In this document: positions 35,911 through 39,083 of the stretch, piece after piece | Position numbering within the stretch: position 1 is the first letter of the stretch | Layout: each line of letters opens with the position of its first letter | Assembly: GCF_011067135.1 (NCBI RefSeq) | Contig: NZ_JAAMOW010000001.1 | Coordinates: forward strand, 496,001 to 560,000 | Direction: 5' to 3' | DNA length: 64,000 nucleotides | Source of the DNA: Solimonas terrae | GTDB lineage: Bacteria; Pseudomonadota; Gammaproteobacteria; Nevskiales; Nevskiaceae | The notes under the pieces: generated by a model | Told to the model about the DNA's origin: nothing | What the model saw: the letters and a program-made list of their open reading frames with translations, nothing else | The model's database searches: none | Translations under genes and position numbers: made by a program

Positions 35911-36531
35911 TCAACGCCAGTGATAGTTGAAGCTGATGCTCACCCGTTCGGCGTCGATGCGGCTGGCCGGCACCTCGTGACGCAACCAGCTTTCGAACAG
36001 GATCAAGTGCCCGGCTCTGGCCGGATACAGGATATGTGGGCGCATTCCCGGTGCCGCGCCGGCCTTGCGCGATGGCGCCGCCATCAGCCGCGACAAGCGC
36101 GGGTCTTCGAACTTCAGACCGCTGGCGCCACGCGGTGTCCGCACGTAGTACGTACCGCTGACCACCGACTGCGGGTGCAGATGAAAACTGTGGGCACAGC
36201 CCTTCGGCATGATGTTGATCCAGCAATCCGTCATCTGCAGGCGACCCCCTCGCAGATCCCAGTGCTGGGTGCGTGCGTAGCGCTTGACGTGGGTATCGAT
36301 GCGGTGACGCAAGGCATCGAAGGTCGACGAAAACAGATGCAGGCGATCAAGAGAGCCGTAGCTGGTGTATCCCAGCGGATAGTTCGGCTCCGACCATTTG
36401 CGACCGGCGATGTCGTGGTCGCGAATCCGCAGGCATTCGTCCAGCAGTTCAGCGTTGAACGCCCGCAGGCCTTCGGCCTGCAGGCGTTCGCTGTAGATCA
36501 GCGTGGGAAACCACGCCTGCGTGCTCTTCAC
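35911..36531 (-). CDS. TIGR02466-type protein, putative 2OG-Fe(II) oxygenase
   Basis: The 206 residues match the TIGR02466 family: N-terminal AWFPTLIYSERL, then WDLRGGRLQMTDCWINIMPK, the HxH-like SFHLHPQSVVSGTYYVRTP, and a C-terminal HLILFESWLRHEVPASR with the second His, followed by RVSISFNYHW. These would be the iron-binding His and the 2OG-binding Arg of a double-stranded beta-helix dioxygenase. No in-frame ATG is well placed. The GTG at 36531, four bases after the panD stop, is the best start. The substrate is unknown, and it is unusual between panD and pgi. Confidence 0.8.
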   Translation of the reverse strand: MKSTQAWFPTLIYSERLQAEGLRAFNAELLDECLRIRDHDIAGRKWSEPNYPLGYTSYGSLDRLHLFSSTFDALRHRIDTHVKRYARTQHWDLRGGRLQMTDCWINIMPKGCAHSFHLHPQSVVSGTYYVRTPRGASGLKFEDPRLSRLMAAPSRKAGAAPGMRPHILYPARAGHLILFESWLRHEVPASRIDAERVSISFNYHWR

Positions 36532-36535
36532 ACGC

Positions 36536-36922
36536 TCAGGCGCCGACAGCCTGAACCGGAATCGTGTTGGCCGTGCGCTGCACGCGGTTTTTTTCGTCGA
36601 GATAGACCAGGTGCGGCTTGTACACTCGTGCCGCGGATGCGTCCATCGACGAATACGCACAGATGATCACGCGATCACCGACACCAGCCTTGTGCGCCGC
36701 CGCGCCGTTGACCGAGATGATGCCGGAACCCGGTTCCGCCCGGATCGCATAAGTCGTGAAACGTTCGCCGTTGGTGACGTTGTAGATCTGGATCTGTTCG
36801 AACTCGAGAATATTGGCCAGTTCGAGCAGCTTCGAATCGATCGCGCAGGACCCTTCGTAGTCGAGCTCAGCGTGGGTCACACAAGCACGATGCAGCTTGC
36901 ATTTCAGCATGTGCAATTGCAT
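36536..36922 (-). CDS. panD: Aspartate 1-decarboxylase
   Basis: PanD makes beta-alanine from aspartate for pantothenate synthesis. The 128-residue proenzyme self-cleaves between Gly24 and Ser25 (DYEGSCAID) to form the pyruvoyl group. [20 protein letters not shown] and [18 protein letters not shown] are conserved. The gene has its own candidate promoter just behind panC and a tandem-hairpin leader. Shine-Dalgarno AGAGG lies about seven bases before the ATG. Confidence 0.97.
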
Positions 36923-36948: not shown

Positions 36949-37024
36949 TGCGCGGCCCAATAAGACATACGCGCAGGGCTTCTCAGGTCTGAAAAGGCGG
37001 GTGGCCCACTAAGACATGCACCCG
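36949..37024 (-). ncRNA. Tandem hairpin leader of panD (candidate cis-regulatory RNA)
   Basis: On the transcribed strand two hairpins precede panD. Hairpin A (37024-36998) has a 6-bp stem CGGGTG/CACCCG and the 15-nt loop CATGTCTTAGTGGGC. Hairpin B (36975-36949) has a 6-bp stem TGCGCG/CGCGCA and the loop TATGTCTTATTGGGC. Within each loop GTC can pair with GGC, leaving a 3-nt 5' bulge and a 6-nt apex. The stems differ fully in sequence yet keep pairing while the loops are nearly identical, which is the mark of a conserved RNA fold. Hairpin B ends 26 bases before the ATG. The same element precedes panB. Confidence 0.75.
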
Positions 37025-37055
37025 GCGCCGGTGGCAAACCATCGGCAAGGGTCGA

Positions 37056-37083
37056 AGTTTAGCTGATTTCCGCGCTGGATCAA
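37056..37083 (-). promoter_or_regulatory. Candidate panD promoter
   Basis: On the minus strand TTGATC, a 16-base spacer and TAAACT directly follow the panC stop codon. Predicted transcription starts near 37049, giving a leader of about 128 bases that contains both hairpins. Confidence 0.6.
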
Positions 37084-37088
37084 ATCAT

Positions 37089-37934
37089 TCAGGCAGAAGC
37101 CGGAATGTTGTCAATCAACCTCGTATTGCCGAGAAATGCCGCCAAAAGTATGCGAAATTCGTTATCGGCGATGTCGGCACGCTGCAGGTCCGGGCGCCTC
37201 ACAACCAGATACTGCGGACGAAACCCCGAATCGCGGAGCACTGACAAGCCACGTTCGCAGAGCGGATCGAAATCGCGCGCGCCGGCACGCAACTCGGCGG
37301 CCAGCTGCACCAGTACCTGGTGCAGTACCGACGCCCGCTTGCGTTCCTCCGCGGAGAGGTACTGATTGCGTGATGACAAGGCCAGACCATTGACCTCGCG
37401 CTCGGTCGGCACGCCGAGAATGTCGACAGGCAGATGCAGATCGGCCGCCATCTGCCGGATCACCAGCAACTGCTGGTAATCCTTTTCGCCGAACAGGGCG
37501 ACGTCCGGCCGCACGATGTTCAGCAGCAGATTGACGACCGTCGCCACGCCGTCGAAGTGCCCCGGACGGAACTCGCCCTCGAGGATGTGCGCGTAGCGCG
37601 GCACGCTGATGACCGTGAAGCCTTCCCGGCCATGCGGATACATTTCCGCCACCGAGGGCGCAAACAGAAGATCGCACCCGGCCTGTACCAGCTGCTCGGC
37701 GTCGGCATCGAGCGTGCGCGGATAACGATCGAAGTCTTCGTTCAAGCCGAATTGCAGGGGATTGACGAACACGCTGGTGACGACGCGCTGCGCCTGCGCA
37801 TGCCCCGCCTCGACCAGACGCAGGTGGCCGCGATGCAGATTGCCCATCGTCGGCGTCAGCGCAACCCGTTCGCCAGCCTTGCGCCAGGCGGCAACCTGTT
37901 CCCGCACCTCGGCGATCGTGTGAACGGTCTTCAT
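37089..37934 (-). CDS. panC: Pantothenate synthetase
   Basis: PanC ligates pantoate and beta-alanine with ATP. The 281 residues show the nucleotide-binding TPTMGNLHRGHLRLVEAG (a HxGH motif with Arg at the second position), SVFVNPLQFG, EKDYQQLLVIRQMAADL and the mobile-loop equivalent LALSSRNQYLS. The ATG overlaps the panB stop (ATGA), so panB and panC are translationally coupled. Confidence 0.97.
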   Translation of the reverse strand: MKTVHTIAEVREQVAAWRKAGERVALTPTMGNLHRGHLRLVEAGHAQAQRVVTSVFVNPLQFGLNEDFDRYPRTLDADAEQLVQAGCDLLFAPSVAEMYPHGREGFTVISVPRYAHILEGEFRPGHFDGVATVVNLLLNIVRPDVALFGEKDYQQLLVIRQMAADLHLPVDILGVPTEREVNGLALSSRNQYLSAEERKRASVLHQVLVQLAAELRAGARDFDPLCERGLSVLRDSGFRPQYLVVRRPDLQRADIADNEFRILLAAFLGNTRLIDNIPASA

Positions 37935-38863
37935 CGCGAGCGCGTTTTCTTCGGCGATCCCGTCTTCACGATCGGCTGCCGATCGGCTGGCGCGCCGATC
38001 GCGGCCGCCGATCCGGATTTCAGCGCCTTGGGCGCGGGCGCCGCATCCGCGAAGCCGTGCTCGGGGGCCGGATACGCACCGGACTTCACTTCGTCGACGT
38101 AGTTGCGAATGGCCGATTCGATGTCGGCCGCGCCCTGCATGTAGTTCTTCACGAAGCGCGGCGTGTGCCCCACCGTCACCATCGGTGAAATATTGAGGAT
38201 GTCCTGGAGCACGAGAATCTGGCCGTCGGTATGTGGGCCGGCGCCGATGCCGATCACCGGCACCGACGAAATCTCGGTGATGCGCTGACCCAGCGACGAC
38301 GGTATGCACTCCAGCACCAGCAGGTCGGCACCGGCGTCCGCGAGCACCTTGGCATCGTGCAGCATCGCCTCGGCTGCGAGATCATCGCGCCCCTGCACCT
38401 TGAACGCACCGAGCTTGTGGACGAACTGCGGCTGCAGCCCGAGATGCGCGCAAACCGGCACGCCCCGTACGGCCAGATACTCGACGATGCTCGCCTGCTC
38501 GCGTCCGCCTTCGAGCTTGACCATCTTCGCGCCGCCTTCCTGCATCAGGCGCTGCGAGGCATCGAGTGCGCGCTCGAGCGTCGCATACGAAAGAAACGGC
38601 AGATCGGCGACCAGAAAGGCGCGCTGCAGATGTGGCGCCACGCAGCGGCTGTGATAGGCAATGTCGGCCACTGTCACCGGCGTGGTGGTCGTGCCGCCCT
38701 GGATCACCATGCCCAGCGAATCGCCGACCAGAATCAGGTCGACGCCGGCACGATCCTCGAGCATCGCGAAGCTCGCGTCGTAACACGTCAGGCACGCAAT
38801 CTTCTCGCCGGCAGCGCGCATGCGGCGCAGTTCGGCAACATTGACCGGTTTGGTCAGGTTCAT
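37931..38863 (-). CDS. panB: 3-methyl-2-oxobutanoate hydroxymethyltransferase (C-terminal extension)
   Basis: PanB makes ketopantoate from 2-oxoisovalerate and methylene-tetrahydrofolate. The core matches the family: CLTCYDASFAMLEDRAGVDL, VGDSLGMVIQG, KLEGG, and PVIGIGAGPHTDGQILVLQD. The ATG at 38863 has a Shine-Dalgarno GGGAG seven bases upstream. The product is 310 residues, longer than the usual 260-270; the extra tail after NYVDEVKSGAYPAPEHGF is Ala/Pro/Lys/Arg-rich and looks disordered. Its leader carries a tandem-hairpin element. Confidence 0.96.
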   Translation of the reverse strand: MNLTKPVNVAELRRMRAAGEKIACLTCYDASFAMLEDRAGVDLILVGDSLGMVIQGGTTTTPVTVADIAYHSRCVAPHLQRAFLVADLPFLSYATLERALDASQRLMQEGGAKMVKLEGGREQASIVEYLAVRGVPVCAHLGLQPQFVHKLGAFKVQGRDDLAAEAMLHDAKVLADAGADLLVLECIPSSLGQRITEISSVPVIGIGAGPHTDGQILVLQDILNISPMVTVGHTPRFVKNYMQGAADIESAIRNYVDEVKSGAYPAPEHGFADAAPAPKALKSGSAAAIGAPADRQPIVKTGSPKKTRSR

Positions 38864-38933
38864 ATCAGGACTCCCGGAAAACGGCGCGGCCTCCATGTCG
38901 CACACGGAGGAAAGAGCACGTTTTCGATAGGAA

Positions 38934-39011
38934 AACGCCGGCGGCCCACCAAGACATACGCGCGACGTTCACGGGTCAGATAGAAAGGGCGGCCCACTAA
39001 GGCAGACACCC
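38934..39011 (-). ncRNA. Tandem hairpin leader of panB (candidate cis-regulatory RNA)
   Basis: Hairpin C (39011-38987) has stem GGGTG/CGCCC, with one G-U wobble, and the 15-nt loop TCTGCCTTAGTGGGC. Hairpin D (38969-38934) has the loop TATGTCTTGGTGGGC on a longer stem (AACGTCG/CGGCGTT plus two GC pairs, with a small internal bulge). Loop length and content match the two panD hairpins, while the stems differ. In hairpin C the inner loop pair becomes GCC/GGC, a compatible change from GUC/GGC. Hairpin D ends 70 bases before the panB ATG. No T-run follows, so an intrinsic terminator is not obvious. Confidence 0.75.
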
Positions 39012-39055
39012 GCTGGCAGATGCCGGAAGCGGCCGACATCGGCGAAGTGCGGCGA

Positions 39056-39083
39056 AGTGTAGCCGTTCCCGGCGTACCGTCAA
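39056..39083 (-). promoter_or_regulatory. Candidate panBC promoter
   Basis: TTGACG, a 16-base spacer and TACACT overlap the end of folK on the minus strand. Predicted start near 39049 gives a leader of about 186 bases holding both hairpins C and D. Confidence 0.65.

Follow-up and report, generated by a model that had tools for sequence, protein, structure and literature searches.

The pan motif (Rfam RF01749) has in common with the element described here both its association with pan genes and its tandem arrangement, which we found in 48 distinct panD and 16 distinct panB leaders. The two differ in structure, in that the pan motif carries single-base bulges on both sides whereas the present hairpins have one 3-nt bulge on the 5' side (YAU) and no conserved bulge on the 3' side. 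They also differ in distribution, pan RNAs having been reported from three phyla (PMC2864571, in excerpt) and the present element occurring in one gammaproteobacterial family and a neighbour. The guanidine-II (mini-ykkC) riboswitch likewise consists of two short tandem hairpins in a leader; in contrast to it, the spacing here is tight and complementarity between the loops is not conserved. The guanidine-II loop also differs from the loop of this element. In E. coli and its kin PanZ controls PanD, the same enzyme step, but at the level of the protein (PMC4410942, in excerpt). No match to PanZ (PF12568) was obtained in any of 21 genomes searched, and the E. coli control was found. According to the summary of PMC4410942, no regulation of pantothenate synthesis had been identified before the PanZ work, and an excerpt of PMC9971707 calls the absence of CoA-binding riboswitches puzzling; control of pantothenate synthesis is poorly known. 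A literature search, with most subscription journals lying outside it, turned up no description of the element. Pantothenate, panB and panD all go unmentioned in the main text of PMC6429828, as do riboswitches and RNA motifs in the main text of PMC11487621, which deals with CoA synthesis in B. subtilis.

We analyzed a stretch of 64,000 nucleotides from Solimonas terrae (the window). A first-pass annotation of its sequence had proposed two hairpins in the panB leader and two further ones before panD with a common loop, as well as a promoter of the form TTGACG-N16-TACACT at 39083-39056. Four hairpins, each an exact match to one loop pattern, were confirmed on the minus strand, and the promoter is present as claimed. 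The 15-nt loops lie at 39006-38992 and 38958-38944 in the panB leader and at 37018-37004 and 36969-36955 in the panC-panD gap; all four fit the pattern TGYCTTRKTGGGC, their cores are near-identical, and they are paired, with one pair in each leader. The features are given below in the order of transcription, with bit scores from R1, a covariance model built from 51 copies of the hairpin.

39056 to 39083, minus strand: panB promoter, predicted sigma-70, TTGACG-N16-TACACT, read and scanned; the same shape recurs in all 3 relatives that were scanned
39019 to 39040, minus strand: P0 hairpin of variable sequence between the panB promoter and hairpin 1, read and folded
38987 to 39011, minus strand: hairpin 1 of the panB leader, GGGTG-TCT-GCCT-TAGT-GGGC-CGCCC, read and folded; 35.4 bits
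38934 to 38969, minus strand: hairpin 2 of the panB leader, with its core loop at 38944-38958 and an outer stem prolonged beyond a bulged C, read and folded; 40.6 bits
38860 to 38919, minus strand: possible short upstream ORF with a GTG start, a poor Shine-Dalgarno sequence and a TGA overlapping the panB ATG; doubtful in the window's genus, as it fails the strict test
37931 to 38863, minus strand: panB, ketopantoate hydroxymethyltransferase, an ORF with a PF02548 match in the own-genome search
37089 to 37934, minus strand: pantothenate synthetase gene, which from its sequence we take to be panC; its start overlaps the panB stop
37056 to 37083, minus strand: predicted panD promoter, TTGATC-N16-TAAACT, read, with the geometry of the panB promoter and a -10 box conserved in relatives; below the promoter-scan threshold
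37026 to 37047, minus strand: P0 hairpin of the panD leader, of variable sequence, folded
36999 to 37023, minus strand: hairpin 1 of the panD leader, GGGTG-CAT-GTCT-TAGT-GGGC-CACCC, read, and folded in the shorter slice; 49.8 bits
36950 to 36974, minus strand: hairpin 2 of the panD leader, GCGCG-TAT-GTCT-TATT-GGGC-CGCGC, read and folded; 41.3 bits
36929 to 36934, minus strand: panD Shine-Dalgarno sequence AAGAGG, read
36536 to 36922, minus strand: panD, aspartate 1-decarboxylase, with a PF02261 match in the own-genome search

An alternative in-frame upstream start of panB is possible at 38896 or 38905. No Rfam family matches the window's leaders. Within the window TGYCTTRKTGGGC has four perfect occurrences, one with two mismatches and 34 with three, a total of 39 against 35 expected, and only the perfect class is special. 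Across the 4.42-Mb genome the four perfect occurrences all lie in pan leaders; there are 11 sites with one mismatch, two of which (L005 and L007) would suit the wider core TGYCTTNNTGGGC, and the reversed control gave 20 sites at up to one mismatch. In this genome R1 scores nothing but the four copies in the leaders.

The annotation had drawn the conserved unit as a 15-nt loop with an internal GYC/GGC pairing and a 6-nt apex on outer stems that change by compensatory or wobble pairs. The conserved loop stands, and the whole unit is better drawn in four parts: an outer stem of five base pairs, a bulge of three nucleotides on the 5' side (YAU, in some copies UCU), an inner helix GYCU/GGGC of four base pairs, and UNNU at the apex. 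Given 51 copies and no structure, RNAalifold returned this redrawn fold with four of the five outer pairs. The apex is variable in letters and length (TTTCGT in one form, a variant in L176, CTC replacing CTT in L182), which is expected of a loop end. As to the outer stems, the claim held: the covariation score of the 51 copies (0.159) was reached by none of 500 shuffles and exceeded all structures slid along the alignment (0.017-0.121), and that of 83 distinct model-aligned copies was likewise above every one of 500 shuffles and every slid structure. Counted from the loop, the second outer pair is UA in 21 of the 51 copies, CG in 20, UG in nine and something else in one, and hairpins 1 and 2 of the same leader differ in letters at this pair in 46 of 64 leaders. 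Of five covariation measures run with shuffles and slid controls, one, the number of pair types, was not above chance, being reached by 212 of 500 shuffles for the 51 copies and 47 of 500 for the 83, with slid structures equal or higher. Kinship among the genomes inflates all such counts, and because the inner helix is nearly invariant, covariation cannot test it. Alignment A3 comprises the best 150 of 207 matches from 91 loci, fitted to the model, and two window rows of alignment A2 have shifted ends. A conserved, covarying tandem pair of RNA hairpins tied to panD and panB is supported by these data.

Thermodynamic folding was examined for the hairpins alone and in context, with shuffles of leaders and 25-mers that keep single-base composition only. 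Isolated 25-mers gave a mean z of -1.47, with 105 of 128 below -1 and 11 above 0. Three of four slices of the window fold singly as described and the fourth, with longer flanks, folds otherwise (z -0.5 to -1.6, modest relative to shuffles). The panB hairpins of the window are missing from the best fold of one long slice and have outer-stem probabilities of 0.77 and 0.44 in another; the panD hairpins are both in the best fold of one slice, and hairpin 1 falls to 0.03 in a longer one. A mean outer-stem pair probability of at least 0.5 was reached in whole panD leaders by hairpin 1 in 20 of 48 and hairpin 2 in 29 of 48, and in whole panB leaders by 3 of 16 and 1 of 16, respectively. Folding of whole leaders, as modeled, supports the hairpins weakly, above all before panB, and the dependence of the window's own leaders on slice ends slightly lowers our confidence in the explanation preferred below. 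For P0, the mean z was -1.48 over 48 panD leaders, 16 of which lay below -1.5, and -0.85 over 16 panB leaders, where support is weak (single-base shuffles in both).

To follow the element beyond the window, R1 was searched in 85 genomes of the order. Matches were found in 58 genomes, including 56 of the 58 in the window's family (f1) and the single genome of a neighbouring family (f5). Among the matches listed, which for weak matches delimit the searches of both order and class, family f6 gave one weak match (E 0.0097) in 17 genomes, and f2, f3 and f4 gave none in one, four and four genomes. A gene for panD was detected in 80 of the 85 genomes. In the window's family the pair stands before panD in the same 56 genomes that have a detectable panD, and G067 and G035 have neither; it also stands before panB in 18 of the 58, namely nine of 11 in the window's own genus (g1) and nine of 18 in genus g3 (Nevskia and kin). 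Linkage to both genes was established by matching the coordinates of two tables by eye. Throughout the window's family, which comprises Solimonas, Nevskia, Hydrocarboniphaga and kin, the pair is a fixed feature. The expectation that matches would lie upstream of pan genes in relatives is borne out by these 56 genomes. The annotation had also raised the possibility of a mobile repeat. A mobile or dispersed repeat was rejected, as the four exact pattern matches in the own genome are all in pan leaders with none outside, and each family genome has few matches (one to five among the matches listed, G023 and G079 each having one extra weak match elsewhere).

Wider searches gave the same picture. 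A search with the tandem pattern matched 30 of 61 genomes (the own genome and 60 relatives) against one in the reversed control; one of the 30 (L038 in G052) is chance-like and has neither panB nor panD alongside. In 369 genomes of the class, R1 found the own genome and, among the matches listed, two weak matches at loci with neither gene. In 84,980 species the tandem pattern returned 76 stretches, 44 of which adjoin panB or panD. Of these, 37 are named Solimonas, Nevskia, Hydrocarboniphaga, Sinimarinibacterium, Fontimonas, Panacagrimonas, Stagnimonas, Stenotrophobium, Polycyclovorans, Algiphilus, Nevskiaceae, Nevskiales or Sinobacteraceae; three are labeled Gammaproteobacteria only, and four carry the labels Rhodospirillales (one contig, twice), Verrucomicrobia and Lysobacteraceae. 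Three loci labeled Verrucomicrobia or Rhodospirillales (L134, L117 and L140, from MOSS_genome_mining) combine the motif with panB/panD that resemble those of Nevskia and share 72-80% identity with the genes of the window; given this combination, their labels are probably wrong. None of the remaining 32 stretches scored better than E 0.07 with R1, and the 29 inspected resemble repeats or coding sequence. Two stretches from Robertmurraya kyonggiensis (L101 and L113) are arrays of a repeat of about 52 bp with GTGTCTTCATGGGC and have no R1 match at E ≤ 1. With search filters off, 16 panD leaders (from 23 panD genes found) and three panB leaders of f2, f3, f4 and f6 gave no convincing match (best E 0.067), and an f1 leader searched alongside (L176) gave a convincing one. 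Before pan genes, these searches found no copy of the element beyond the window's family and one neighbouring family.

We then compared leader anatomy in the 64 distinct leaders (48 panD and 16 panB, identical sequences collapsed), each of which has the pair. All 64 have a TANA(C/A)T box, placed 40-89 nt 5' of the first core, against 5.3 expected, and panD therefore seems to own a promoter after panC. The box, like the upstream ORF described below, was first spotted by eye; the leaders that suggested it also served for its test against single-base shuffles, and the expected numbers should not be taken as blind p-values. A further hairpin, variable in sequence, often separates the box from hairpin 1. 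In four panD leaders (L109, L134, L049 and L063) a TGTGA-N6-TCAC palindrome lies between the -10 box and hairpin 1; it can fold as an RNA hairpin, and it also resembles a CRP-type operator. The cores of the pair are 46-53 nt apart, at 49 or 50 in 41 of the 64 leaders. From the second GGGC to the panD start there are 29-38 nt in 47 of 48 leaders and 45 in one, and Shine-Dalgarno-like words of four bases (33 of 48) or three bases (14 more) bring the total to 47 of 48. This gap leaves scant room for a terminator and places hairpin 2 next to the ribosome site.

Before panB the arrangement is looser. The gene starts 61-144 nt after the hairpin 2 core in the 16 distinct panB leaders (61-90 nt in the window's genus). 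In genus g3 a short ORF starts 31-33 nt after that core, behind a Shine-Dalgarno-like word, and ends in a stop codon that overlaps the start of panB in all eight distinct leaders tested, against 0.08 expected from shuffles. A second panB codon starting with A gives an overlapping stop for free in one frame. The ORF begins with ATGCAA, usual for panD, in six of the eight, and the distances from its start to panB take six different lengths in a single frame. A ninth leader, L182, when read by eye has ATGCAA at 29 nt and a stop overlapping a GTG. The strict form of this test was passed by none of eight leaders of g1. We read the g3 leader as a probable copy of the panD leader together with its start codon, set before panB in a frame that would allow coupled translation of panB. 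The spacing of hairpin 2 to panD and the g3 upstream ORF both point to translational control.

On this sequence evidence we judge the element a candidate for a new class of cis-regulatory RNA, and it is probably a tandem leader RNA of Nevskiaceae and close kin that controls translation of panD and panB through occupancy of the pair. The RNA structure, tandem layout, spacing, gene linkage and position after a promoter are supported by the computations; we infer that translation is the controlled step, that the pair is recognized as a unit and that feedback comes from the pantothenate/CoA pathway. Each promoter would give a short 5' UTR with two bulged hairpins about 49 nt apart, the second ending at a near-fixed short distance 5' of the panD ribosome-binding site. 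The pair would be recognized as one unit, its occupancy setting how readily ribosomes load on panD and also, either directly or by way of a coupled upstream ORF, on panB, and the supply of beta-alanine and ketopantoate, hence of pantothenate and CoA, would be adjusted jointly. The most likely reader of the pair, at slightly better than even chances, is a dimeric RNA-binding protein; direct sensing of a ligand is appreciably less probable, and any other reader is unlikely. The tight spacing and small hairpins lean toward a protein, and the restriction of the element to one pathway keeps a ligand in play. Three pairings were tried and rejected. By eye, the core has no common complement with the varied Shine-Dalgarno words that it could sequester; likewise by eye, pairing between the two 3' strands (GGGCCRCCC) is lost where hairpin 2 has another stem; and a kiss between bulges, YAUG being self-complementary in many copies, is broken by UCUG in 5 of 64 first hairpins, so that conserved kissing is not supported.

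Ligand sensing would make the tandem pair itself a translational riboswitch, comparable to the two-hairpin guanidine-II switch and responding to pantothenate, beta-alanine, CoA or a related compound. We hold this special case of the leader-RNA model only tentatively. The short leaders, all of one pathway, each with two small hairpins whose cores hardly vary and whose apices do, would suit it, and the missing CoA riboswitch has been termed a notable gap (PMC9971707, in excerpt). The pocket offered by a 25-nt hairpin whose apex is 4 nt and whose bulge is 3 nt is nevertheless small, the unsupported kissing interaction tells against it, and the tight spacing suits a bound protein dimer at least equally. 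A more specific version, rather doubtful to us, is a natural translational riboswitch of two 25-nt hairpins for CoA or an intermediate of the pantothenate pathway, with a portable cassette of leader and start codon copied from panD to panB.

The other readings fare worse. If the repeats were DNA operators of a transcription factor, their direct repetition near a promoter and near-invariant core would be natural, the prevailing 49- or 50-bp spacing would be compatible with a fixed helical face, and the palindrome between promoter and hairpin 1 in several panD leaders would fit. The near-invariant core cannot discriminate between DNA and RNA, but the outer stem varies in sequence with pairing kept, and its wobbles fall mostly in the mRNA sense (11 against two on the opposite strand over outer pairs 1-5; nine against one at pair 2 alone), although the mostly unpaired sixth outer pair reverses the count (two against 12). 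The full range of spacing, moreover, covers two thirds of a helical turn, and g3 keeps a start codon and reading frame after hairpin 2. The annotation had preferred RNA to an operator on the behavior of the stems, and the stem and wobble counts agree; an operator is very unlikely. Transcription attenuation by a terminator/antiterminator in the leader is, if anything, less likely still. In the window, a hairpin resembling a terminator (38938-38918) overlaps panB hairpin 2 in its 3' stem, and the region has five terminator-like sites against 1.8 expected; yet the G-C pairs of that hairpin number three and its T run is broken, the three congener panB leaders scanned contain no site of this kind, and in nearly all panD leaders the gap after hairpin 2 gives a terminator scant room. 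The annotation had left undecided whether the element is a divergent pan motif. The genes, tandem layout and short hairpins are the same, and a dimeric protein has also been proposed for pan RNAs (PMC2864571, in excerpt). The RF01749 model, however, finds nothing in the window at its gathering threshold (36.2 bits), nothing in the window's leaders at E ≤ 10 and nothing in 21 genomes at E ≤ 1, with a positive B. subtilis control, and its consensus, bulged on both sides, has other conserved letters. By model score and structure the element is not a divergent member of that family, a membership to which we give hardly any credence.

For the leader-RNA model as preferred here, what is at stake is a small element that accompanies all 56 detected panD genes of a family in which Solimonas and Hydrocarboniphaga have named species in culture. 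Should the element really be unrelated to the pan motif, tandem hairpins would have arisen at least twice for the same genes, a striking convergence, and a riboswitch for CoA or a pathway intermediate, if that is what it is, would be a cofactor sensor missing from the riboswitch list. The gene after panD (35911-36535 in the window) encodes a product with WFPTLIY, and similar proteins are encoded 3' of panD in many of the family's loci that were read. Nine family genomes (G005, G011, G013, G014, G017, G025, G072, G079 and G081) have a second PanB-like match elsewhere.
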